Of a DNA stretch of 64,000 bases, positions 1,082 through 53,129 are shown piece by piece. The stretch comes from a virus. The stretch is taken from positions 113,461 to 177,460 of IMG/VR virus record IMGVR_UViG_3300008952_000005; one strand, given 5' to 3'. The notes under the pieces are model-generated. The model did not search any database, had not been told where the DNA came from, and saw nothing but the letters and a program-made list of their open reading frames with translations. The position numbers and the translations under genes were made by a program. Within the stretch, counting starts at the first letter, position 1. Each line of letters opens with the position of its first letter.

Positions 1082-3228
1082 TAATCCGTTTGTATTATAG
1101 TAATATTATTTTGTGTAGAGGAACTCCCTACGTCCACGTGTTGAGCTTCTGAATCTTGTAAAATCTGTATATCTGCTTCTTTACTTGTTTCAGTTTTTAC
1201 ATACGCTCTATGGCTATCATTATATCTATTTATGATTGTGTAGTCACCAGACGTTGAAGCAGTTGCGTTAAAGTCGTTATCTAACGTTGATACTCTTCCT
1301 GTAGAAGTAGTACTTGTTGACACACCACCGCTTGTTGTAGTTAAGGTTTGAGTTACATCTCCAGTAGAATAATTTAATGTTTCACCACTAGCAGTTACTT
1401 GCGTTTCTGAACCACTATTGTCTACCCATTCAGTACCACAACTAGAGTTGGCATTGTCCCAATAGTATCCATAATTTAAACACTCTTCTTTATCATAACT
1501 TGCTAATAATAATTCTAATTCTGCGTCTATATCATAGTCATCTTCGTAACCATATTCATCTTCCCAATTGGTCTCATCTGATTCATTATTGTAATCGTAA
1601 CCTGTATACCACCAATCATATACTGCGTCCCAATATGTATTCCAATCTGACCATTCCCAATCTGTTATGTACGTATTCTTTAAATCTTTCATCTTCCAAG
1701 GTTTAGGTTGATTTTCACACATTTTATAATTAGGATAACTTCCACACCAACCATATAATTTACCCCATATCTTTTTAGATTCTTTAGTCCAACTATCATT
1801 GGTTACTTTTAAAGTCCAGTCATCTTTGTACCACGAATTTAACCAATCAACATAGTCTTGGTTACACCAGTAGTCATCATAGCCATTGTACTCACAATAA
1901 TTTTGTATAGTTAATGTTGGTGGACCGCCTGCCGCTTTGTATTCTGCATTGTTATAATAGTCATCATCTAAAGCAAAATCTTCCCAAGTATATCCTTCAA
2001 CTACATCTGCTTCTGTTTCATCTTTTGTATCTTCAACTACGTTAACCTCTTCTTCTTCAACTGCCCAAGAAGTTAAACCATAATCTTCTAATAATTCATT
2101 ATACTCATCATAGTATGCGTCCCAATCAACTGCGTCCCAATCTACATCATCCCAATTAATAGTATCCCAAGTACAATCTGAACAACCAATGGCGTCAAAG
2201 TATGCTTGATCCATTTCTGCATACATTTTCTTTGCGTCATCCCAATCCATAGTTTGTTCACCTTCGGCATCCCAAACTGAAATCTGATTATCTTCATCTA
2301 TATAACCCCAATCTTTTAAATCTTCTTCCCAGGAATCATAATAAGATGTATCAACTTCTTCTACTTCAACTAATGCTGTTTCTTCTGCTGACTTTGTTTC
2401 AACTATTGCGTCTGTTTCACCAACAGATAAATCTGTAGCGACAATTGTATTACTATCTTCTACTACACTTGCTTCTTCATTAATTAATGCCTCTTCCATT
2501 GCCTGTGCTTCAGATTCTTCTTTAGACATTTCAGTTTTCATATCTACATCACCAAAATGTTTTTGAGATTCATCTTTTATTTCTTCTTCAAATTCATTTA
2601 ACTCAATAATATCTGACTTATTAGTTTCTATTTTTGGAGGTGTTGGTGCTAAATCATTTGATAAAACGGTTACTGAATTGTAAGCGTTAGTTATTGTTTG
2701 AGAACCTGCGTCATTGGATACAGTTACTTGTCCTACTACACCAGAACTATCTGGCAACAAAGTAATAGTTGCTTCACCTGTAGATGTTACCGTTCCTGAA
2801 AAAGCAGTACCTTGTACTGTAATTGTGGCATTACCAGCATTGATATTAACTTCACCACCTAAATTAGATATAGAACCTGATTCATATGTAAATGTACCAA
2901 CATTAACCGATATGTTCATTGCAATTTCTATTGGTACAACAGAAGTATCAAAAGCAAATTCATCAATAGTTAATTCTGTATTTGGTCCCATTGTAAATTT
3001 AGTTTTATCAACATATGATAAAATCATACCACCATCTTCTCCAGTTTGGAGAAAGTCATTCATCTGCAACTCATAACCCATTGAGGTATTTTGAGTTGAA
3101 CCATCTCTTTCGTTCCAAGTCGTACCCATTTGACCTATGACTTCGCCAACTTTTGGACCTGTTATTTGTGAGAAAACACTAGTACAAAAAAGTACCAGAA
3201 AAGATATTAAAAATAAAAACTTCTTCAT
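1081..3228 (-). CDS. Secreted FecR-domain protein with Trp/Asp/Tyr-rich middle
   Basis: A 715-aa exported protein. Residues 1-20 are a signal peptide (MKKFLFLISF..., likely cut after VFS). Residues about 25-185 match the FecR fold: repeated short beta strands with L-T-I-D-E, NISVNVGTFTY and a V-Q-G-T-A-F motif. Residues about 205-290 are acidic. About 290-600 are extremely rich in Trp, Asp and Tyr (for example WDDVDWDAVDWDAYYDE) and hold eight cysteines in loose pairs. Residues 610-715 are Ser/Thr-rich and could be fibre-like. In bacteria FecR-domain proteins often sit beside CHASE2 cyclases, as one does here 3 kb away. The gene overlaps the upstream thioredoxin-like gene by 4 nt (ATGA). Exact role unknown; a surface or periplasmic scaffold is my inference. 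Confidence 0.8.
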   Translation of the reverse strand: MKKFLFLISFLVLFCTSVFSQITGPKVGEVIGQMGTTWNERDGSTQNTSMGYELQMNDFLQTGEDGGMILSYVDKTKFTMGPNTELTIDEFAFDTSVVPIEIAMNISVNVGTFTYESGSISNLGGEVNINAGNATITVQGTAFSGTVTSTGEATITLLPDSSGVVGQVTVSNDAGSQTITNAYNSVTVLSNDLAPTPPKIETNKSDIIELNEFEEEIKDESQKHFGDVDMKTEMSKEESEAQAMEEALINEEASVVEDSNTIVATDLSVGETDAIVETKSAEETALVEVEEVDTSYYDSWEEDLKDWGYIDEDNQISVWDAEGEQTMDWDDAKKMYAEMDQAYFDAIGCSDCTWDTINWDDVDWDAVDWDAYYDEYNELLEDYGLTSWAVEEEEVNVVEDTKDETEADVVEGYTWEDFALDDDYYNNAEYKAAGGPPTLTIQNYCEYNGYDDYWCNQDYVDWLNSWYKDDWTLKVTNDSWTKESKKIWGKLYGWCGSYPNYKMCENQPKPWKMKDLKNTYITDWEWSDWNTYWDAVYDWWYTGYDYNNESDETNWEDEYGYEDDYDIDAELELLLASYDKEECLNYGYYWDNANSSCGTEWVDNSGSETQVTASGETLNYSTGDVTQTLTTTSGGVSTSTTSTGRVSTLDNDFNATASTSGDYTIINRYNDSHRAYVKTETSKEADIQILQDSEAQHVDVGSSSTQNNITIIQTD

Positions 3229-3596
3229 TTCTTAAACACCTCATCTAAATCATTATAAAACGATTCTTTATCTGCATACCCTATTATTCTTACCAATTCT
3301 TTTCTACCATTCCATACAATAAATGTTGGTGTTCCTCTAATAGGTTTAATTCTTCCTTCAGCATATGCCTCTTTAAACCATTTAGGTTGATTATATAAAT
3401 TAATAATAACTAAAGGTAAATCTTCATACTCATAGTCAACTCCTACCTCTTGTAAAAAGTTTTGACATATACCACACATAGGATTGTGTGCCATTAATAA
3501 TTCATTTGCTTTCGCTGATGATATGCCTAATACTAATAATACAGTAACACAAATTATTATTGCCCATTTTTCCCAAGGGTTGTGAAATAGTTTCAT
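3225..3596 (-). CDS. Membrane-anchored thioredoxin-like thiol oxidoreductase
   Basis: A 123-aa protein with one N-terminal hydrophobic helix (residues 11-28), so it is either an anchor or an uncleaved signal, followed by a compact thioredoxin-like domain. The active-site pair is C-G-I-C at residues 41-44 and the cis-proline is in R-G-T-P-T-F (P90). Such proteins catalyse disulfide exchange in the periplasm. Its immediate partner genes encode a FecR-domain protein with eight mature cysteines and a curlin with two, which are plausible substrates. It overlaps genes on both sides by 4 nt (ATGA). Family assignment is firm; the substrate is inference. Confidence 0.8.
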   Translation of the reverse strand: MKLFHNPWEKWAIIICVTVLLVLGISSAKANELLMAHNPMCGICQNFLQEVGVDYEYEDLPLVIINLYNQPKWFKEAYAEGRIKPIRGTPTFIVWNGRKELVRIIGYADKESFYNDLDEVFKK

Positions 3597-3724: not shown

Positions 3725-4816
3725 TTAACACCCATTAGATACTGTTGCTGTTACGTCTGCTGTTTGATTGTTTCTGTTATAAGAATAAGTACAAGTATAT
3801 GATCCAGTTTGAGCAAAGTTTAATGTGTAATCGTAAATTGAATCACCTGTTATAGTAACCTTACCAGTATTACCACCACCTGTTTGAGCAAAATTTATTA
3901 CTGTATCATCTGTATAAAGGAAAATTCTAGCAGTATTATTACCGCCTGCCATATGTAATCTAATTGTATTACTATCGCCATTTATTATCGTTCTTAACCA
4001 ATTGTTATCGCCAGATATTATAGCTGAGTCTCCATATGGGTCTGTATCAGCACTAGTATAACTAGAGTGAATATCTAAAAGATTTGAACTGCCTATAAAA
4101 TCGTGTAGTTGATAGTTACCTGTACCATATGATGAAGTGTGTATTACATTTGAATTTCCTACTATGTAAATATCTGCACTTGCACCTTCACTACCTGAAC
4201 TGTCTGCAAAATAACCGTGTGAAGAAGTTAGTGGACCAATTGCTTTGTTAGAGTTTGTATTAAATCCTACTGAATCAGTTGTACTATACCACTCTACAGT
4301 ATTACTATCACCGTTCATAAGAACATATAAGAAGTGATTATCACCTCTATTCTGAACCCAAAATGTATTTGAGTCACCAACAATATCTAAATCAACATTG
4401 AAATTTGCTGAATCATCTGTCCAAGTATCATAGTCTACTACATTTGAATTACCTGTAATAGTATGACCTAAATAATGACCTGTAGCATCCGTATCATCTA
4501 TACCTAATCTTAATTTATTAGAATTACCAGTTGCTGTATATAATAAAGTCATATCCTCACCATAAAAGTGTTGGTGACCAGAATAATCTGATACATTATT
4601 ATTACCTATCTGATTTATAATGATTGTAATGTTCTCTCCATTGACTTTAAATGGATATGTTGTTGAATAACCAACAGTATTACCTGTTCCATCTTGTTTT
4701 ATAAAGATAGAACCATCGCTGTCTTGATTGTCTTGTTGAATCCAAACTGAATTACCTGCTAGGCAATTACTCGTTAATGCTATTAGAGTCAACAGAATCA
4801 TTATCATTTTTTTCAT
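3725..4816 (-). CDS. Curlin-repeat protein (CsgA/CsgB-like amyloid subunit)
   Basis: A 363-aa secreted protein with a signal peptide (residues 1-20, cut after CLA). The mature part has many imperfect strand-loop repeats with curlin signatures: Q-x-G-x-G-N (IKQDGTGNTV), N-Q-I-G-N-N-N, F-A-Q-T-G-G-G-N, and a family of G-(D/N)-S-N-(T/V) turns about every 20-35 residues. Curlin subunits form extracellular amyloid fibres after export through CsgG. At 363 aa it is more than twice the usual length of CsgA/CsgB, and the repeats are less regular. Two cysteines lie near the C-terminus. Its start lies 50 nt inside the end of csgG. Its place directly after csgF and csgG supports the call. Confidence 0.75.
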   Translation of the reverse strand: MKKMIMILLTLIALTSNCLAGNSVWIQQDNQDSDGSIFIKQDGTGNTVGYSTTYPFKVNGENITIIINQIGNNNVSDYSGHQHFYGEDMTLLYTATGNSNKLRLGIDDTDATGHYLGHTITGNSNVVDYDTWTDDSANFNVDLDIVGDSNTFWVQNRGDNHFLYVLMNGDSNTVEWYSTTDSVGFNTNSNKAIGPLTSSHGYFADSSGSEGASADIYIVGNSNVIHTSSYGTGNYQLHDFIGSSNLLDIHSSYTSADTDPYGDSAIISGDNNWLRTIINGDSNTIRLHMAGGNNTARIFLYTDDTVINFAQTGGGNTGKVTITGDSIYDYTLNFAQTGSYTCTYSYNRNNQTADVTATVSNGC

Positions 4817-5897
4817 CTACTTCCTCCCAGGCTTTCTCGTCTTCTATTTTTTCTTTTATCTTGTTTTTGTTTTCTTCTTTTTGAATTTCTTTTGTTTTAA
4901 GTGCTTCTAAATGTGCTAAATGTGCTTGATATTCGTCCCAAGTTTTAAACTTTGTTTTATTGGCTTTGTTATAATTTTTTACTTCAAGTTTTTGTGCTTT
5001 CTTTAATTCTTTTTTAGCTTTCTTTTCTTTCTTAAAATCTTCGTATGTTTTCTCTGGTTTTGCTTCGCCAATATCAACTGTTATTTCATCTGCTACTACT
5101 TTTAAATCTTCTGTTGGTACTATTTCCACTAGTTCAAATTCCCATAGTCCTTTTTCTGCACCTTCATTAATTAATTCTACTACACCTTTTTCTATTGCTT
5201 TTCTTACTGCATAAGTTACAGGTTCATTTCTTGCCACACCTGCTTCAATCTCTACTAACATTGTATCAGTATCTAAATATTTAAATATATCGCTGCCAGT
5301 TTCACCTGATATTATAGTCTTCTCAACAGTAAGTGATACCACTACTTCACCTGTTTGTACATTAACAAGTCTTAATATAATTGTAACTACATCTTGTCGC
5401 CATTGTTTATGTGCTTGTATACCTAAAATTCTTGCACCAAAACCACCTGTCTTTACATCACTATCATAACCTACTATACCACCTGTTATATATGCACCTG
5501 CAAATAACAATGGTGGTAATGGTTCTGCACCTTCTCCATTAACTTGTTGTCTTGTAGAACGGATTAATTTTCTTTCTTGTAATAAACTTGGCAAACTTGC
5601 TCGTTCTACTATTCTAAACCATTTGCCATCACCTGCGTCTTGTAATGCTTTAATTAATAACTGATATGATCCTTGAGTTACTGCTGTACTCATAGACGCA
5701 AAGTTACCACCAGGTTTCTTTTGTCCTGTCATATCTAAAAAATCATATACTGCAATGATAATAGGATCGCCTTTAGGTAATTTCACTTCCGTTAATTCTT
5801 TATACAGAACAGGTTGAGACCTAACATCAAAGTCAGGTTTACCAGCACAACTAACTAACAATAATGTTAGTAATAATATAACTATACTTCTAAACAT
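4767..5897 (-). CDS. csgG: Curli secretion channel lipoprotein CsgG, with long charged C-terminal extension
   Basis: A 376-aa outer-membrane lipoprotein. The lipobox is L-V-S-C (C17). The body shows CsgG family features: I-A-V-Y-D-F-L-D-M-T-G-Q, the run through W-F-x-V-V-E-R/FRIVERASL, the LIRSTRQ segment, and the G-G-I-V-G-Y-D-S-D and W-R-Q-D-V-V-T-I-x-L-R-L-V-N stretches that build the nonameric pore. I chose the ATG at 5897 rather than the longer frame to 6002, because the extra 35 residues lie in csgF and lack a signal. After about residue 265 there is a Lys/Glu-rich tail of about 110 residues absent from E. coli CsgG. The start overlaps the csgF stop by one base. Confidence 0.9.
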   Translation of the reverse strand: MFRSIVILLLTLLLVSCAGKPDFDVRSQPVLYKELTEVKLPKGDPIIIAVYDFLDMTGQKKPGGNFASMSTAVTQGSYQLLIKALQDAGDGKWFRIVERASLPSLLQERKLIRSTRQQVNGEGAEPLPPLLFAGAYITGGIVGYDSDVKTGGFGARILGIQAHKQWRQDVVTIILRLVNVQTGEVVVSLTVEKTIISGETGSDIFKYLDTDTMLVEIEAGVARNEPVTYAVRKAIEKGVVELINEGAEKGLWEFELVEIVPTEDLKVVADEITVDIGEAKPEKTYEDFKKEKKAKKELKKAQKLEVKNYNKANKTKFKTWDEYQAHLAHLEALKTKEIQKEENKNKIKEKIEDEKAWEEVDEKNDNDSVDSNSINE

Positions 5898-6361
5898 TAT
5901 GAGTTGTCTTCTTTCGGCATTGTAAATGTTGTTACAGTTCCGTCGGTCTCCGTGACAGTTACGCTTACAGTATCGTTTGCTCCTGTAGTTGTTGTTGCCC
6001 AAGTTACTACTTCACCACCAACTGGTGATGTAAATGTACCAGAGTCTTGTTGTAGACCATCTGTACCAAAAACATTATCTGTAAGTTGTTTAGCAAGTGC
6101 TGTATAAAATCTTGATTCAACATTTGCTTTAAATTTTGCTATTGCTGTTGCCTTGGCGTCTGCTATTACTTTATCTGCCGCCGCTTTATTCGCTGCCTTT
6201 ATAGCATCCTTCCTAGTCTTCTCAATATTCTCTATCGTTAGATAATGTGAAGATTTACCTTGACCTGAAAATGATGGACTATGAAATTTAAAACTTAATT
6301 CACTTGCATAGGCACTAGGAACTAACAATAATACTGTTAAAATAATGGTTATTAATCGCAT
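5897..6361 (-). CDS. csgF: Curli assembly factor CsgF
   Basis: A 154-aa secreted protein and the first gene of the operon. Residues 1-19 are a signal peptide ending AYA. The mature N-terminus (S-E-L-S-F-K-F-H-S-P-S-F-S-G) matches the CsgF signature F-x-F-x-x-P-x-F-x-G, the segment that inserts into the CsgG pore. A basic, alanine-rich helix follows (residues about 48-85), then a beta-rich C-terminal region. In curli systems CsgF couples secretion to nucleation at the cell surface. It has a purine-rich ribosome site (AAGGA) and a late promoter 24 nt upstream. No csgE, csgC or separate csgB is visible nearby. Confidence 0.85.
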   Translation of the reverse strand: MRLITIILTVLLLVPSAYASELSFKFHSPSFSGQGKSSHYLTIENIEKTRKDAIKAANKAAADKVIADAKATAIAKFKANVESRFYTALAKQLTDNVFGTDGLQQDSGTFTSPVGGEVVTWATTTTGANDTVSVTVTETDGTVTTFTMPKEDNS

Positions 6362-6384
6362 TTTCCTTCTCTCTTTGATGTATA

Positions 6385-6392
6385 TATTTATA
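6385..6392 (-). promoter_or_regulatory. T4-type late promoter for the curli operon
   Basis: TATAAATA on the minus strand, 24 nt before the csgF ATG. The same octamer precedes portal, gp21, scaffold and tail-tube genes here. This implies that the curli cluster is expressed late, under gp55 and the sliding clamp. Confidence 0.7.
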
Positions 6393-6400
6393 AGATATCT

Positions 6401-6414
6401 GTACTAAATAGTAC
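6401..6414. repeat. Perfect inverted repeat in the divergent csgF / cyclase intergenic region
   Basis: GTACT-AAAT-AGTAC, a perfect 5-bp dyad ending 3 nt before the cyclase ATG and 9 nt from the late promoter of the curli operon. It could be an operator; this is suggestive only. Confidence 0.35.
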
Positions 6415-6416
6415 GT

Positions 6417-8072
6417 ATGATTAAAATATTGACGAAAACGTGGGCAGTATATTTGACGTTGATTATATTACTTGGAATATATATATCAAATCCTATCTTG
6501 CTACAAACAGCAAAACTAAACACCTTTGATTTTTACCAAACCTTTGGTAAGAATTATGAATCCAAAAGTTTAGTACTAGTAGACATATCAGACAAAGCAT
6601 TAAAAAAGAATGGGCAATGGCCGTGGAAAAGAGATTTACTTGGTCGTGTCATAATCAATGCGTATAAAAATGGTGCCGCTCTTGTAGTTTTACAAGTAGT
6701 CTTCCCACATAAAGATAGATTAGGTGGTGATGAAATGTTTTTGAAAATGATACAAAAATATCCAGTCATACTTACTGAAACGGATGATGTAAAAAATCTA
6801 CAAAGTATCTCACGTAAAGCATTAGCAATAGGTAACGTAAGTGTGCCAGTTGATATAGATGGCACTATAAGAAAACTACCTCTTGATAAATCCATACCTG
6901 ATGTTATCTTAAAAGTTATCAATGCAAAAACTTTAGCAGAAGATACTATCTGGATTGATTTCAGACATCATATTCCTAGAATAGATTTTACTGATAAAGA
7001 TTGGTCGTCTGTAAAAGGTAAAATAGTTTTCATAGGTACAACATTCCAAGGTTCAACATTTGTTACTACTCCTAATGGATTAAAAAACACACACGAAATT
7101 ATGGCAATCAGTACAGAAACTTTATTGTCAGGTAATTTTATTAGTAGACCTTATTGGTTACCATATAGTGAATTTGCTTTTATACTATTAGGTGCTCTAT
7201 TTTTTCTCATAGTTATACCTAGATGTGGTGTAATGTGGTCTGCGATATGGTTTGGTGGATACTTATTTGATTTAACACTTGCAAGTTCTTATCTATGGAC
7301 GCAACACTTAATCATAACTGATTGGTTCAGTCCACTTGTAATAGGGTCTGTAATATGGGGTCAGTTAACATACAATAACTATTCAAAAGAAAATAAATTA
7401 AGACTACAAATTAAGAAACAATTTGAACACTATCTATCTCCAGATATGGTTAAAAAACTACAAAAGAATCCATCACTATTAAAACTAGGTGGTGAAAGAA
7501 AAAAAATGACGTTTTTGTTTTCAGACATACGTGGCTTTACTCCTATATCGGAATCTATGAAAGGTAATCCAGAAAAACTTACCAAGTATGTTAATAAGTT
7601 CTTGACTGTAATGACTGATATAATATTAAAAAATGGTGGAACTATTGATAAGTATATGGGTGATTGTATAATGGCATTTTGGAACGCACCCCTAGACAAT
7701 CCAAATCATCAAAGATTAGCAGTATTATCTGCATCCCAAATGAAAAAAACAGTTGAAGAAATGAATAAGAGTAGAGAGTTTGACCCACCTTTAAAGATTG
7801 GTATAGGTATCAATACTGGTGAGTGTCTTGTAGGTAATATGGGGTCTGAACAACGTTTTGATTATTCTGTTATTGGTGACGCTGTTAATTTGGCAAGTAG
7901 ATTGGAAGGTAAAAGTAAAGATTTTGATACTACAATAGTAATATCTCAACATACTGCTGAAGGTATTGACTTTGTTCCATTGGCAAGACCAGATGGATTT
8001 AAATTCTATAAACTAGGTATCTCTACTGTAAAAGGTAAAAAAGAAAAGGTTAATTGTTTTTCTATTAAATAA
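6417..8072 (+). CDS. CHASE2-domain class III adenylyl cyclase (membrane)
   Basis: A 551-aa protein predicted to make cAMP from ATP. Layout: N-terminal TM helix (7-25), periplasmic CHASE2 sensor domain (about 30-245, with V-L-V-D-I-S-D and W-P-W motifs), three TM helices (about 250-318), then a class III cyclase domain. Metal-binding D370 (F-S-D-I-R-G-F-T) and D416 (K-Y-M-G-D), substrate Lys412, and transition-state N491 and R495 are all present. The usual substrate Asp is replaced by S484 (Y-S-V-I-G-D), the Thr/Ser variant known as class IIIb, in which Lys still favours adenine. It is the only long plus-strand gene, divergent from the curli operon. No clear ribosome site precedes the ATG. It was probably acquired from a bacterial host. 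Confidence 0.9.
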   Translation: MIKILTKTWAVYLTLIILLGIYISNPILLQTAKLNTFDFYQTFGKNYESKSLVLVDISDKALKKNGQWPWKRDLLGRVIINAYKNGAALVVLQVVFPHKDRLGGDEMFLKMIQKYPVILTETDDVKNLQSISRKALAIGNVSVPVDIDGTIRKLPLDKSIPDVILKVINAKTLAEDTIWIDFRHHIPRIDFTDKDWSSVKGKIVFIGTTFQGSTFVTTPNGLKNTHEIMAISTETLLSGNFISRPYWLPYSEFAFILLGALFFLIVIPRCGVMWSAIWFGGYLFDLTLASSYLWTQHLIITDWFSPLVIGSVIWGQLTYNNYSKENKLRLQIKKQFEHYLSPDMVKKLQKNPSLLKLGGERKKMTFLFSDIRGFTPISESMKGNPEKLTKYVNKFLTVMTDIILKNGGTIDKYMGDCIMAFWNAPLDNPNHQRLAVLSASQMKKTVEEMNKSREFDPPLKIGIGINTGECLVGNMGSEQRFDYSVIGDAVNLASRLEGKSKDFDTTIVISQHTAEGIDFVPLARPDGFKFYKLGISTVKGKKEKVNCFSIK

Positions 8073-8500: not shown

Positions 8501-8676
8501 TACTTTTGTCTGTTAATTGTTTTCTTAACTAAATCAACAGTACTTTTACTAATATCTTTAGTCTTTGTTAATAAATTTCCACCAAGGTTTATTATTTTTG
8601 TTCTAGGTGTTATCTTTTCTTGTACAATCTTTTTTGTTTTTGGATCATACTTTTGCTGTAAAAATTCCATTACCAT
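8500..8676 (-). CDS. 58-aa basic small protein
   Basis: A minus-strand ORF beginning MVMEFLQQKY and ending KKTINRQK, lysine-rich with no TM segment or recognised motif. Its ATG overlaps the stop of the putative outer spanin and its TAA overlaps the next ATG, extending the coupled string. A GGAG-type ribosome site precedes it. Confidence 0.5.
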   Translation of the reverse strand: MVMEFLQQKYDPKTKKIVQEKITPRTKIINLGGNLLTKTKDISKSTVDLVKKTINRQK

Positions 8677-9047
8677 TATTCCTTCTCCTTTTCTTTTTTC
8701 TTATCATCTGGTTCATAATATTCTTTATACTGGTCAAGTAAATCATTAGTGTGTTTCAAGTGTGCTCTTATTTGAGCAAAGTTTTTTGCAATTAATTGAA
8801 AGTCCTTATCACTCAATCCAAATAGTACTGGATCAAGTCCTTCTGCTTCCATCTTTTGGAATACTTCTTCTGCATTGTCAGAAGTAATTATAATCCACCT
8901 CAACTTTTCAAGTTCAGGCATAGTTGGTTTAACTAAATCTAATTTCTGTCTAGGTTCTTCTAACTTAAATATTTTAAGTTGTTTCTCACCGATTGAGCAA
9001 CCAGTAAGTATTAGAACAGCAATGATACTAATTATTATACGGTACAT
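8676..9047 (-). CDS. Lipoprotein, candidate outer-membrane spanin (Rz1-like)
   Basis: A 123-aa lipoprotein with lipobox L-T-G-C (C17) and a mature part that is helical and charged, ending in a Lys/Glu run. Spanins fuse inner and outer membranes in the last step of lysis. The gene starts 20 nt inside the end of a gene encoding an N-terminally anchored coiled-coil protein, which is the classic overlapping Rz/Rz1 arrangement. It is longer than most Rz1 proteins and lacks proline richness, so the role is inferred from arrangement rather than from motif. Confidence 0.6.
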   Translation of the reverse strand: MYRIIISIIAVLILTGCSIGEKQLKIFKLEEPRQKLDLVKPTMPELEKLRWIIITSDNAEEVFQKMEAEGLDPVLFGLSDKDFQLIAKNFAQIRAHLKHTNDLLDQYKEYYEPDDKKKEKEKE

Positions 9048-9504
9048 ATGATGGATTTGCTATGGATGGGCACTCCCTATTAATTTCTGATTTTTTGGTT
9101 GCGTTCTTCTCTTGTTCGGTAAGTGGTGAACCACCTGCTATCTCTACACAACGAATAGCTTTATCACTTGCACCGTTAATAATTCTTTGTATTGTTTCTG
9201 TTTTTTCTATGGCGAGTTTACCAAAGTCACGACCTTTTTTATTAAATCTTTTATCTAAATCATCTAAATCTTTTTTAAGAGCTGAAACAAGTTCGTTCAT
9301 CTTGTTGTTTGCTTTTAAAATTTCTTTAAAGTCTTCTTGTTGCTTAGCAATGAGTTCCTTTTGAGAACTCACTGCTTCTTCCAATTTGATTTGATTCGCT
9401 TTTAAAATGGCATTATCGGATCGTAACTTCATTACATACATACCTGCACCTGCAAGTCCTGTAATCATCACAACTACCATCGCCATTTTTAAATAACCAA
9501 ACAT
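9028..9504 (-). CDS. Candidate inner-membrane spanin (Rz-like)
   Basis: A 158-aa protein with one N-terminal TM helix (residues 7-26), then a periplasmic coiled coil (about 30-110) with a Gln/Lys/Glu-rich heptad pattern, and two cysteines in the C-terminal part. This matches the layout of Rz inner spanins. The 3' end overlaps the lipoprotein gene in another frame. Upstream lies a small hydrophobic protein that could be the holin. No endolysin is seen in this window. Confidence 0.65.
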   Translation of the reverse strand: MFGYLKMAMVVVMITGLAGAGMYVMKLRSDNAILKANQIKLEEAVSSQKELIAKQQEDFKEILKANNKMNELVSALKKDLDDLDKRFNKKGRDFGKLAIEKTETIQRIINGASDKAIRCVEIAGGSPLTEQEKNATKKSEINRECPSIANPSYVPYNN

Positions 9505-35389: not shown

Positions 35390-36802
35390 TTATTTTTTAT
35401 TTTCTCCTTTCTTATCATCTAAACTATATTTTGTCGTAATTATATATTTTCTATTAGGGTTAACCATAACATTAAATCTATTCATAGTTTCCCTATCAAA
35501 TAATATTTTAGATTTTTCATCCCTATCATCTAGGGTAAATTCTACTTCTTTGTAATATCCACCTGCAAATTTTACATCAAGTTTAATTACTATTCTTTCT
35601 TCTTTATAATCTCTTAATCCACCTACTTCAATTGTTTGCTTACGTACTATATCGTTTGATAGTGTCTTACCTTCTAACGACCAAGTAACTTTACCACCTG
35701 ATTTTTTTATTTTATCAGCGTGTATAACAGACGTACCTGAATTACCTGTATCAAATTTACCTACTATACGTCCAAATGGATGTATGTAGACAACTTCTTT
35801 ATACCCACACATAGTTGGAACTTTTTTCCAATGTTCTCTATTTTCAAAGTGTTGTATAATTTCTTTACTTAAATTTCTATTTGTTGCTTCTTCTATACCT
35901 TCTGTACCTGGTGAAGAGTTAACTTCAATAACAAATGGTTCTTCGTTTACTCTATCTGCTGACGGTATAAAATCTACTGCAACCCATTGACCATCTACTG
36001 CCTTAGCAGCTTTTAAACTTTCTTCTGTTTCTAATTTTGTTAATTTTAATTCTTCTACTTCTGCACCTCTTGATACATTACTTCTAAAATCTCCTGGCAC
36101 TACGTGTCTTTTCATAGCAGCAAATACTTTACCTTGTAATACTAAAACTCTAGCATCCCATTTAGTTTTTATATATTGCTGTAATAATATATCAGAATCC
36201 TCATCTTGTTTATTAAGTAATTGTACTATTGAATCTAATGATTTTTCTGATTCAATAAACAAGACACCAACACCTTTTGAACCTCTTAATGTCTTTAAGA
36301 TAACAGGAAACTTTTCTTCTAAACTATTAAAAGATTCCATTGAATTTTCTGGATCAGTTACCAATACTGATTTAGGTTGTCTAATACCATAGTCTGCTAA
36401 TCTTAATGAAGTTCTATATTTGTCGGCACACATACTAACACATTCTCTACTATTAACTACACACACTTGGTGTTTTTCTAATCTTGATACCAAGTCCATC
36501 CAACTATCTCTACGTACTACTGAACCTCTTATAACAGCAACTGTATCTCTTGCCGATACTCTAAATCCTTTGTTGTCATCTTGATTATGGAAATACATTT
36601 CTCCATCATCTTCAACAGTTACATACCCACCAGTATTTCTATAGATGTATGACTTATGACCAAGCTTATCTGCTTGTTTCATTAAGTTCTTTGCTGTATG
36701 GAAATTTAAATCATTTTCAGGTTCATCTGATATAATGATTAATCTATATGATCCAGAAGTTTTTGCTTCTGTTATGTAATCTTTGAATTTTGGTATCTGC
36801 AT
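35390..36802 (-). CDS. RimK-type ATP-grasp ligase fused to a retropepsin-like (RimB/Zn_protease) domain
   Basis: A 470-aa fusion. Residues about 115-320 are a RimK-type ATP-grasp domain: S-V-L-V (around 145), V-I-L-K-T-L-R-G-S-K-G-V-G-V (167-180) and E-V-N-S-S-P-G (293-299). Residues about 335-460 form an aspartic-protease-like domain, F-D-T-G-N-S-G-T-S-V-I (350-360) with D351, as in the protein usually encoded next to rimK. RimK adds glutamates to ribosomal protein S6 and RimB can trim them. Here both activities may act in one chain. The N-terminus (F-K-D-Y-I-T-E-A) resembles a capsid-targeting peptide. Confidence 0.82.
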   Translation of the reverse strand: MQIPKFKDYITEAKTSGSYRLIIISDEPENDLNFHTAKNLMKQADKLGHKSYIYRNTGGYVTVEDDGEMYFHNQDDNKGFRVSARDTVAVIRGSVVRRDSWMDLVSRLEKHQVCVVNSRECVSMCADKYRTSLRLADYGIRQPKSVLVTDPENSMESFNSLEEKFPVILKTLRGSKGVGVLFIESEKSLDSIVQLLNKQDEDSDILLQQYIKTKWDARVLVLQGKVFAAMKRHVVPGDFRSNVSRGAEVEELKLTKLETEESLKAAKAVDGQWVAVDFIPSADRVNEEPFVIEVNSSPGTEGIEEATNRNLSKEIIQHFENREHWKKVPTMCGYKEVVYIHPFGRIVGKFDTGNSGTSVIHADKIKKSGGKVTWSLEGKTLSNDIVRKQTIEVGGLRDYKEERIVIKLDVKFAGGYYKEVEFTLDDRDEKSKILFDRETMNRFNVMVNPNRKYIITTKYSLDDKKGENKK

Positions 36803-50518: not shown

Positions 50519-51573
50519 TGATTTACCTCGCTATATAGTTCTTTAGTATAATCTTTTAATTTACTTTTGTCAAGGTCTGTATCAAGTTGGTCTATATACT
50601 TGCCCAAAAATGTAAGTGTATCTTCACCTTGTTCTATTAAGTCTTCTTTTACACTAGCAGTTACATCACTAGTATCCTCAAAAATATTTAGTTCGTGTAT
50701 ATTCAATGTACTATACAACCTATTGATAAACTTATCATACATATCTTCATCTGTTTTTTGAGATATAAACAGTTTAATATAACTGTTATCAAATCTTGAT
50801 ATGTTTAACGTATTATAATCGTGTTGTGTATCATCATACACTATCTTTTTAAAGATTCTTATTGGGTTAGGTATTCTAGTTAACTCTCTAGTATCTGTAT
50901 CAAATATATGAAACCCTTTTGGATCTTTATAATCGTTCCACGTAATTTCATATTGTGTACCTAAATAATATATCCGACCATCATCTGATTTCTTATGAAA
51001 GTGTCCTGATATAACTTTTTCAAATCTATGAAACATTGATTTATCTAACCCTTGTTCGTTCATAAATCCTCTATTCATTTCAAACCCTTTAATTTCTAAA
51101 TGCCCCATACATATTTCAGCATTTGAATTTTCAATAGCATATAAAGACTCTTCATACGTATCATCACATATCCAAGGCATAAACAATATATGCAATCCAT
51201 CAAAGGAAACATCTGATGGTTTTGCATATATCCAAGGTTCATTTTGACCATCATACGTTGTACATAATTCAGTAATTGCATTTACATTATTAGTATTCTT
51301 ATAATAAGTATCGTGGTTACCCAATATAATATGTGTATCTACCTTTTCTTCCCAAAGTCTTTTCATAAACTTTTGGCGAAAAAAATTAGCAGTCTTATAG
51401 TTTATAAATTTACGTCTATCAACTACGTCACCTAAATGTATTAATGTCTTGATGTTGTGTTCTTTCAAATATGGAAAAAATACTTCATCATAAAACCGTT
51501 CTTGATACTGTACAAAATGAGGACTGTCGTTCCGACAACCAAAATGCGTATCGTTTAGTAGGGCAATCTTCAC
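50515..51573 (-). CDS. 47: Recombination endonuclease gp47 (Mre11/SbcD-like)
   Basis: A 352-aa metallophosphoesterase nuclease with N-D-T-H-F-G, H-L-G-D-V-V-D, L-G-N-H-D-T and G-H-F-H-K motifs, all in the expected order. It forms the resection complex with gp46. Overlaps its neighbours by 4 nt (ATGA) on both sides. Confidence 0.95.
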   Translation of the reverse strand: MKIALLNDTHFGCRNDSPHFVQYQERFYDEVFFPYLKEHNIKTLIHLGDVVDRRKFINYKTANFFRQKFMKRLWEEKVDTHIILGNHDTYYKNTNNVNAITELCTTYDGQNEPWIYAKPSDVSFDGLHILFMPWICDDTYEESLYAIENSNAEICMGHLEIKGFEMNRGFMNEQGLDKSMFHRFEKVISGHFHKKSDDGRIYYLGTQYEITWNDYKDPKGFHIFDTDTRELTRIPNPIRIFKKIVYDDTQHDYNTLNISRFDNSYIKLFISQKTDEDMYDKFINRLYSTLNIHELNIFEDTSDVTASVKEDLIEQGEDTLTFLGKYIDQLDTDLDKSKLKDYTKELYSEVNQ

Positions 51574-53129
51574 GTGTAATAATTCTCCTCTATAAAGTCG
51601 TGATAACTTGAATGTGTTTCAGCATCCTTATTCCATATGTCTTTACGTACATCTAATTTTTTAAAATATGGATCCATTATTTCTTTTATTTCTTCTTTAG
51701 TTTTATGTGTATGATATACTAAATTAGGTATATCATCTGGTGCCCAATTAAAACCAGCCGCTATAAAATGTAATCCACTATTACCAGCTTTTTCAGGAGT
51801 ATCAATAGGAAACTCCCAATATTTATTTCTTTGTAAAGCAGCTTGTAAATATCCAAGGAACATTTTAGGTTGCTTCGTAATTAAACTTTCTTCCCATACT
51901 CTATTGTTATTTGCTTTCCAATATGGTGTATCATTTCTTGTTGATAATGCATAATGCAACCCAACAAATTCAGCAAAAGCATAATATATAGATTTACAAG
52001 CAAATGTGAAGTTGTCTTTATCCCATTGTGTAATGTTATCTCTTCTTAAATTTCTTACAAGTTCTATTAAAAATTCGTGTATTGAAAACAAACCATTACT
52101 CTCTAATGGTTCAATAAATCCAGCAGATAGTCCTATAGCAGCCACATTTTTTACAAATAATCTTTCGTGTATACCACACTTCATTTTAAGATTTCTAAAT
52201 TCGTGTTCTTCATTACCAAACCCAGGTCGTACACCTGCTAAATGATTTTTAAATTCTTTTAAAGCAGTTTCATCATCTACAAATTTATCTGAATAAACAT
52301 AACCTGTACCAACTCTACTCCACAATGGTATATTCCATACCCAACCATTCTCTATTGCTGTGCAATTAGTAAAAGATTCAACTTCTTTCTTTTTATCTAC
52401 ATAAGGAATCTTGGTTGCCCACGCTTTATTATTTGGTAGTTTAGGGATAGGTTCAAAAGGTTCTTTTAATGCCTCTCCTAAAAGCATTGCTTTAAAACCT
52501 GTACAATCAATATATAGGTCTGCTTTATGTTTGCCGTTTAAAGAAACAATACCATTTTCATCTTGTTCAATATCTTTTATATCTTCTTGAATATATTTAA
52601 CACCTCTAGGGATACAATAATAATCCTTCAACCATATACCAAATTTAATTGCGTCAAACTGATAAGCAGAATCTTTATCATTGTCAAAACCGTAGAAGTT
52701 TTGAGCACCTTTACCTTGATTAATTAATGCCATAACAGGAGAAAAACTATCAGCATAATCTGAAACAGGTGTTTCTGGATAATATGCCTTTTTCAACCAC
52801 CAATCATTATAATTTAATCTAGTTCCTTCTGTTACAACTGCACCAAAGGGATAGTGAAATGCCGACTCGTCTTTTCCATTAAAGTCTGTAAACTTAATAC
52901 TAAATTTAATAGTGCCATCTGTATGTTTTAAAAATTCTCTATCATCTATGCCTAGAAATTTTGTCCATTGTTTAACTTTTGATATTGTACTTTCACCAAC
53001 TGATATTGTTGGAACGTTAGGTGATTCTAATACAGTTATATCTTTATCGGGAAATGCTCTAACTAAAGTAGCAGCCGTCATCCAGCCAGCAGAACCTCCA
53101 CCGACTATTAAAATCTTATCACACTTCAT
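51570..53129 (-). CDS. Tryptophan-halogenase-like flavoprotein
   Basis: A 519-aa FAD-dependent protein. G-G-G-S-A-G-W (residues 9-15) binds FAD; the family motif W-x-W-x-I-P appears as W-V-W-N-I-P around residue 270; F-I-E-P-L-E-S-N-G is also typical. Such genes are known in marine T4-like phages, but their substrate there is uncertain. Genomic context (between gp55 and gp47) gives no substrate. Confidence 0.85.
   Translation of the reverse strand: MKCDKILIVGGGSAGWMTAATLVRAFPDKDITVLESPNVPTISVGESTISKVKQWTKFLGIDDREFLKHTDGTIKFSIKFTDFNGKDESAFHYPFGAVVTEGTRLNYNDWWLKKAYYPETPVSDYADSFSPVMALINQGKGAQNFYGFDNDKDSAYQFDAIKFGIWLKDYYCIPRGVKYIQEDIKDIEQDENGIVSLNGKHKADLYIDCTGFKAMLLGEALKEPFEPIPKLPNNKAWATKIPYVDKKKEVESFTNCTAIENGWVWNIPLWSRVGTGYVYSDKFVDDETALKEFKNHLAGVRPGFGNEEHEFRNLKMKCGIHERLFVKNVAAIGLSAGFIEPLESNGLFSIHEFLIELVRNLRRDNITQWDKDNFTFACKSIYYAFAEFVGLHYALSTRNDTPYWKANNNRVWEESLITKQPKMFLGYLQAALQRNKYWEFPIDTPEKAGNSGLHFIAAGFNWAPDDIPNLVYHTHKTKEEIKEIMDPYFKKLDVRKDIWNKDAETHSSYHDFIEENYYT

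Follow-up and report, generated by a model that had tools for sequence, protein, structure and literature searches.

The phage gene analysed here, which encodes a putative CHASE2-adenylyl cyclase, is part of a curli module and stands head-to-head with a csgF-csgG-curlin-thioredoxin-FecR operon from which it is separated by 55 bases (Table 1). The explanation that best accommodates the evidence, and in which we place moderate confidence, is that a working adenylyl cyclase would constitute the signalling arm of a phage envelope module (CsgG/CsgF pore, curlin, FecR and CHASE2-cyclase) acting as a transenvelope sensor. This reading draws on the linkage of the genes, on intact domains and conserved catalytic residues, on the shared inheritance of CHASE2, FecR and the Csg genes, and on the linkage of FecR and CHASE2 genes in bacteria. 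The membership of the cyclase gene in a curli module was overlooked in the original prediction, which was made from the sequence of the window (the whole stretch of 64,000 nucleotides that was analysed) and regarded such a sensing cAMP synthase as very rare in phages. That estimate turned out to be wrong, because a scan of IMG/VR for relatives of the cyclase protein listed at least 600 viral stretches and annotations of the gene exist in two cultured phage types (HTVC008M and Melnitz). The phage curli module with its cyclase is already known, and the gene is neither isolated nor rare. The curli cluster of phages was described by Zaragoza-Solas et al. (2020; PMC7029224), and Wittmers et al. (2022; PMC9599517) reported an adenylate cyclase and FecR in the module, found it to be widespread with its genes present in ocean metatranscriptomes, inferred an alphaproteobacterial origin for it and suggested a regulatory role for the pelagiphage T8SS. 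A role of the curli pore in the timing of lysis has also been proposed (Buchholz et al. 2022; PMC9004378).

Table 1. Features of the cyclase gene and the adjoining curli operon (positions in the window)
Feature	Positions	Strand	Basis
CHASE2-class IIIb-type adenylyl cyclase gene (predicted)	6417..8072	+	ATG 6417, stop 8072, open frame, 551 aa
CHASE2 sensor domain, aa 15-262, predicted periplasmic	6459..7202	+	Pfam PF05226 E 5e-28; AlphaFold2
Three C-terminal transmembrane helices and linker, aa 248-336	7158..7424	+	AlphaFold2 helices 248-269, 272-297, 304-336
Class III cyclase catalytic domain, aa 362-550	7500..8066	+	Pfam PF00211 Guanylate_cyc E 2e-22; residues; PDB relatives
Divergent intergenic region csgF/cyclase, 55 bp	6362..6416		
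T4-type late promoter motif TATAAATA, 31 nt upstream of csgF	6385..6392	-	
csgF, extracellular curli chaperone	5897..6361	-	Pfam CsgF E 6e-11
csgG, outer-membrane curli pore lipoprotein (MFRSIVILLLTLLLVSC...), start overlapping csgF stop	4767..5897	-	Pfam CsgG E 9e-50; start codon
Curlin-repeat protein (CsgA/B-like)	3725..4816	-	Signal peptide, GNSN-type repeats; phage-curlin HMM; weak CsgA NCBIfam match
Exported thioredoxin-like protein, CGIC motif	3225..3596	-	Pfam Thioredoxin_2 at its cut-off
Long FecR-domain secreted protein, 715 aa	1081..3228	-	HMMs from phage and bacterial FecRs

At the level of the protein, the predicted architecture of a CHASE2 domain, three transmembrane helices and a class III cyclase was borne out. 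Both Pfam matches lie well beyond their curated cut-offs, and the AlphaFold2 model (mean pLDDT 88, from a 38-sequence alignment) shows a 1+3 transmembrane layout in which an N-terminal helix is followed by CHASE2, three long helices and the cyclase fold, so that CHASE2 lies between the N-terminal helix and the C-terminal transmembrane helices as in CHASE2 sensor proteins. The third C-terminal long helix extends into the linker before the cyclase domain in this model, and hydropathy alone flagged residues 255-273 as the sole C-terminal helix within aa 248-336. The residues named in the original prediction were all located as claimed: D370 and D416 for the metals, K412 and, with a serine at the second substrate position, S484 as the substrate pair, and N491 and R495, a set of the class IIIb type. 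These positions (with S or T at 484) are kept in 77 of the 78 phage sequences analysed, the exception being the cyclase of the cultured phage Melnitz. The nearest solved structures retrieved by Foldseek and sequence searches include CyaB (3r5g), CyaC (1wc0/1wc1) and the guanylyl cyclase Cya2 (2w01), and in the alignment the position of K412 is occupied by Glu in Cya2 and by Lys, paired with Thr, in CyaB. Class IIIb enzymes use a Lys and Thr/Ser substrate pair. The combination of K412 and S484 therefore points to ATP as the substrate, and the window cyclase is predicted, by established class III chemistry, to make cAMP. The expectation of a cAMP synthase thus holds as a prediction, founded on the Lys and Ser/Thr pair and on the CyaB and CyaC relatives; the enzymatic activity of the phage protein is likewise a prediction, drawn from its residues, its fold and the selection on it. 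Given the same pair, cGMP as the product was rated unlikely.

The dN/dS values of the cyclase gene against close relatives (0.10-0.32) indicate that the protein is under purifying selection. Together with the retention of all catalytic residues in 77 of 78 phage sequences, these values argue against the view that the cyclase is a remnant of little functional importance carried along with the curli genes, a view that we consider very improbable, even though the catalytic Asn has been lost in Melnitz and some phage curli regions are said to be without a cyclase (PMC9599517).

The window lies at an end of a virus record 177,460 bases long (IMGVR_UViG_3300008952_000005) and carries T4-type head genes, including one for a major capsid protein that shares 90.7% identity with its counterpart in Pelagibacter phage Mosig EXVC030M. 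This agrees with a phage-encoded cyclase, as had been claimed, and on account of the capsid identity a SAR11 host is likely. An assembly chimera with host DNA, which had been named as a refuting possibility, was rejected because the same divergent arrangement recurs in contigs that were assembled independently and come from other metagenomes (L004-L013, L015 and L016). Recent host-derived contamination was also discarded, the phage cyclases falling in the tree on one side of a branch, apart from all sampled bacterial ones. The cyclase is the sole large gene on the plus strand of the window, and the GC skew flips there. The late-type motif TATAAATA occurs 13 times on the minus strand and not at all on the plus strand, and several of its copies lie directly before head genes, although its total count in the window is not above chance. 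A T/A-rich motif before csgF is retained in divergent relatives, and the cyclase gene is without the late motif. The position of TATAAATA upstream of csgF, its restriction to the minus strand and its occurrence before some head genes suggest a late timing for the expression of the curli operon. Elsewhere in the window, an overlapping pair of Rz-like spanin genes lies shortly downstream of the cyclase (8676-9504), a protein matching phrog_2599, annotated as ribosomal protein S6 glutaminyl transferase, is encoded at 35390-36802, and a tryptophan halogenase-type protein (phrog_2928, E 1e-135) is found at 51570-53129 of this marine T4-like phage.

The genes linked to the cyclase (csgF, csgG, curlin and FecR) are those of the pelagiphage curli/T8SS module. 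In the window and at 82 further viral cyclase loci, wherever the flanks suffice, the csgF-csgG-curlin-FecR block nearly always adjoins the cyclase, in one of two arrangements. Instead of closing the operon in co-directional orientation, the cyclase gene is transcribed away from it in the window and in 12 related loci. A histidine kinase upstream of csgF, a feature of the Podoviridae module, was not detected among the neighbouring proteins scanned with Pfam; such a kinase is not universal in myophages, none being annotated beside the module of HTVC008M. The N-terminus of the long FecR protein (aa ~3-209) matches an HMM of short phage FecRs with an E-value of 4e-36 and a bacterial-FecR HMM with 2e-21, and a direct Pfam FecR match was not obtained in the protein. 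An acidic, W/Y-rich insert with conserved cysteines occupies its middle, and its C-terminus weakly resembles those of short FecRs. The thioredoxin-like gene with its CGIC motif sits between the curlin gene and this cysteine-bearing FecR gene, and the exported protein may relate to the conserved cysteines. It is absent from this position in the close relatives examined, and similar thioredoxin-like genes are present at other places in two of the loci (L009 and L024). A further locus (L056, 2486-6415) encodes, upstream of the cyclase, a FecR-domain protein of 1310 aa, far longer than other phage FecRs.

Phylogenetic comparison places the window in a separate lineage, new to this analysis, that is distinguished by a long FecR (~715-800 aa, about twice the ~370 aa found otherwise) and, in about half of its members, by a divergent cyclase. 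It contains 26 cyclases, full-length or nearly so; their CHASE2 domains group in a single clade (SH-aLRT 100), and identity to the other phage CHASE2 domains in the comparison is only about 24-33%. Among the loci of the lineage, 13 have the cyclase in divergent and 10 in co-directional orientation, a distribution for which the tree needs two arrangement changes only. In the CHASE2, FecR and CsgG trees the lineage lies on one side of a branch, whereas in the cyclase-domain tree it is scattered, with at least five label changes, some of which could be losses. Distances in CHASE2 correlate strongly with those in FecR (0.88) and CsgG (0.87) and less with those in the cyclase domain (0.49). Hybrid proteins are found in both directions: in two loci (L027 and L028) a window-type CHASE2 (69-70% identity) is joined to an HTVC008M-type cyclase (87% identity), and in two others (L036 and L047) the HTVC008M-type CHASE2 side is joined to a window-type cyclase. 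Judged from these sequence comparisons, the Csg genes, FecR and CHASE2 travel together and the catalytic domain has been repeatedly exchanged, a pattern that fits a sensor tuned to its module and coupled to a generic, interchangeable output. Another explanation of the swapping pattern could be linkage combined with recombination that occurs more readily in the conserved domain. Moreover, since CsgG, like CsgF, correlates with CHASE2 as strongly as FecR does in the mirror-tree comparison, FecR and CHASE2 may be inherited together through linkage alone; inside the window clade the correlation of FecR is 0.68 with the cyclase domain and 0.48 with CHASE2.

The nearest cellular relatives of the window cyclase belong mostly to Alphaproteobacteria, and in 27 mostly alphaproteobacterial genomes a FecR gene lies within 6 kb of 30 of the 59 CHASE2 genes, where 0.62 would be expected from FecR density; the genomes were picked for carrying such cyclases, which makes this a linkage rate and not a survey. 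CsgG was found in 2 of the 27 genomes and not in the other 25, and the phage-built models detected no curli genes beside the cyclase at any of 80 bacterial loci. Four bacterial FecR partners were scanned, two of which carry cadherin/Ig-type repeats (one of them also RTX) and one of which is a FecR-TPR protein. Clusters of FecR and CHASE2 have been reported in Campylobacterota (PMC9239204), in a Burkholderia biofilm operon (PMC5192318) and in Sinorhizobium meliloti (PMC5498481). Because the bacterial pair is linked and mostly without curli, the phage cyclase can be regarded as the signalling member of a FecR-CHASE2 pair that already existed, and tying this reported clustering to the phage curli module is the new step taken here.

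According to the mechanism that we favour, the module would be expressed in the infected cell, CsgG would insert in the outer membrane, with FecR and curlin reaching the periplasm or passing through the pore. The periplasmic CHASE2 domain would then restrain the cyclase until the state of FecR and/or of the CsgG barrel changes, and the released cytoplasmic cyclase would convert ATP to cAMP for a target that is probably not of the CRP type. Restraint by CHASE2 is proposed because plasmid-borne CyaD1 without CHASE2 gives constitutive cAMP in S. meliloti (PMC5498481). Release through a change in FecR or the barrel is proposed by analogy with the CHASE2 cyclases of the same bacterium, which respond through the barrel NsrA (PMC13001267). 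Direct signalling from FecR or CsgG to CHASE2 may be envisaged on the same analogy, and the case for a direct FecR input is weakened because the FecR-domain protein SMc02177 of S. meliloti was not required for signal perception (PMC5498481).

The putative target of the cAMP was sought in likely hosts and in the phages themselves. The host set consisted of 58 genomes of one order, that of the genome G124. A 16S probe sequence that we take to be diagnostic of SAR11 was found in 21 of the 58 and had no match in 41 mostly small alphaproteobacterial genomes; genome sizes of 1.0-1.5 Mb in the set and the low GC and proteorhodopsin of G124, the entry genome, are further SAR11 marks. Class III cyclases were detected in none of the 58 genomes and a cNMP-binding domain in four, in no case identified as CRP-like. 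The one such protein that was examined (L184, 919-3264, genome G196) is a cNMP-binding/acyltransferase fusion in an 870-aa ORF whose Pfam matches include no HTH domain, and the remaining three hits are in ORFs of equal length. This type of protein, present in 4 of 58 SAR11 genomes, is a candidate for a non-CRP cyclic-nucleotide target. On the phage side, neither the record of the window nor any of 26 further records with a cyclase, which include the complete HTVC008M and Melnitz genomes and many fragments, gave a match for a cNMP-binding domain. A CRP-like receptor, and with it a cAMP-CRP system, was therefore found neither in the phage records nor in the SAR11 set that stands for the likely host, and a literature search on cAMP in Pelagibacter returned nothing usable.

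These results bear on the remaining explanations. The original prediction had the cyclase raise host cAMP and reprogram host transcription through a CRP-like regulator of the host. Intact catalytic residues would suit this route, and so would the alphaproteobacterial CHASE2 cyclases that signal via the CRP family regulator Clr (PMC5498481), but it is left unsupported, and we consider it very unlikely, because cNMP-binding domains are confined to 4 of 58 SAR11-order genomes, where the one read is an acyltransferase fusion and the others share its ORF length, because class III cyclases are missing from all 58, and because the 27 phage records yielded no such domain. The target is probably not a CRP-type regulator. 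The absence of a cNMP-binding protein from all 27 phage records, the window's included, counts against the proposal that the cyclase tunes the output or timing of the phage's own curli through a non-CRP receptor, either a phage protein or one of the host with a different fold; the constant linkage of the cyclase to the csg genes, the divergent promoter region shared in the window lineage and the regulatory role suggested for the T8SS by Wittmers et al. (2022; PMC9599517) speak for this proposal, which nevertheless seems rather unlikely. A Pycsar-like defence or superinfection exclusion, in which an incoming competitor would trigger the sensor from the periplasm and the product would stop the cell, is highly improbable: the predicted periplasmic sensor would be suitably placed and the domain matches the PADLOC PycC cyclase models (best E 3e-29), but these models describe class III cyclases in general, the linkage is to curli genes, no defence effectors were found among the neighbours scanned, and membership in Pycsar fails because the record holds no cNMP-binding effector. 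Beyond the signalling-arm reading itself, a bolder extension would see a complete transenvelope circuit installed by the phage in a lineage without its own cAMP signalling, the cAMP being read by an undescribed non-CRP receptor of phage or host or exported between infected cells; its chances appear low.

Curli modules of phages are plentiful in the ocean, yet unexplained. Recasting their cyclase as half of a bacterial FecR-CHASE2 sensor pair that was joined to curli in phages offers a testable mechanism and sharpens the puzzle of an enzyme kept under selection in phages in whose likely hosts neither a CRP-type cAMP receptor nor a class III cyclase could be detected. Identifying the receptor would reveal a cAMP target of a new class or else a new way in which a virus uses cAMP.

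Several known systems resemble parts of the window. The catalytic fold and the Lys and Thr/Ser pair are shared with Spirulina CyaC and P. aeruginosa CyaB (1wc0/1wc1, 3r5g), whose sensor domains differ from CHASE2. Clustering of a CHASE2-cyclase with FecR is common to the window and to the CHASE2-cyclase/phosphodiesterase/FecR/TPR cluster of Campylobacterota (PMC9239204), which, unlike the window, is cellular and includes a phosphodiesterase, curli not being mentioned. In S. meliloti, the CHASE2-class III cyclases CyaD1, CyaD2 and CyaK are likewise associated with a nearby FecR gene (SMc02177) and receive their input from an outer-membrane barrel, to which the input of the window cyclase is likened; this bacterium has a dedicated CRP-family receptor, Clr, and curli genes are not mentioned in the available parts of PMC5498481 and PMC13001267.

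Among phages, the Methylophilales phage Melnitz (MZ577097; PMC9004378) has the module in common with the window, in the order csgF-csgG-curlin-FecR-curlin-cyclase. The catalytic residues are intact in the window, whereas the Melnitz cyclase has lost the catalytic Asn (N491S) and carries S484D; it is probably inactive or altered, the sole such case among the 78 phage sequences, and enzyme activity can thus probably be lost. This cyclase (L003, 9935-11986) sits on a very long branch. Since Melnitz keeps the module with a degenerate cyclase, cyclase activity would not always be needed. The Pelagibacter phage HTVC008M (KC465899, cyclase AGE60353) shares csgF, csgG, curlin, a FecR-type protein and the CHASE2-cyclase with the window; both phages are T4-like and their host group is likely the same. 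The two cyclases are 33% identical overall, with 24% identity in CHASE2 and 53% in the cyclase domain. In HTVC008M the cyclase gene is the last of the module and co-directional, whereas in the window it is head-to-head, FecR measures 368 aa as against 715 aa, and the exported thioredoxin-like gene is an addition of the window.
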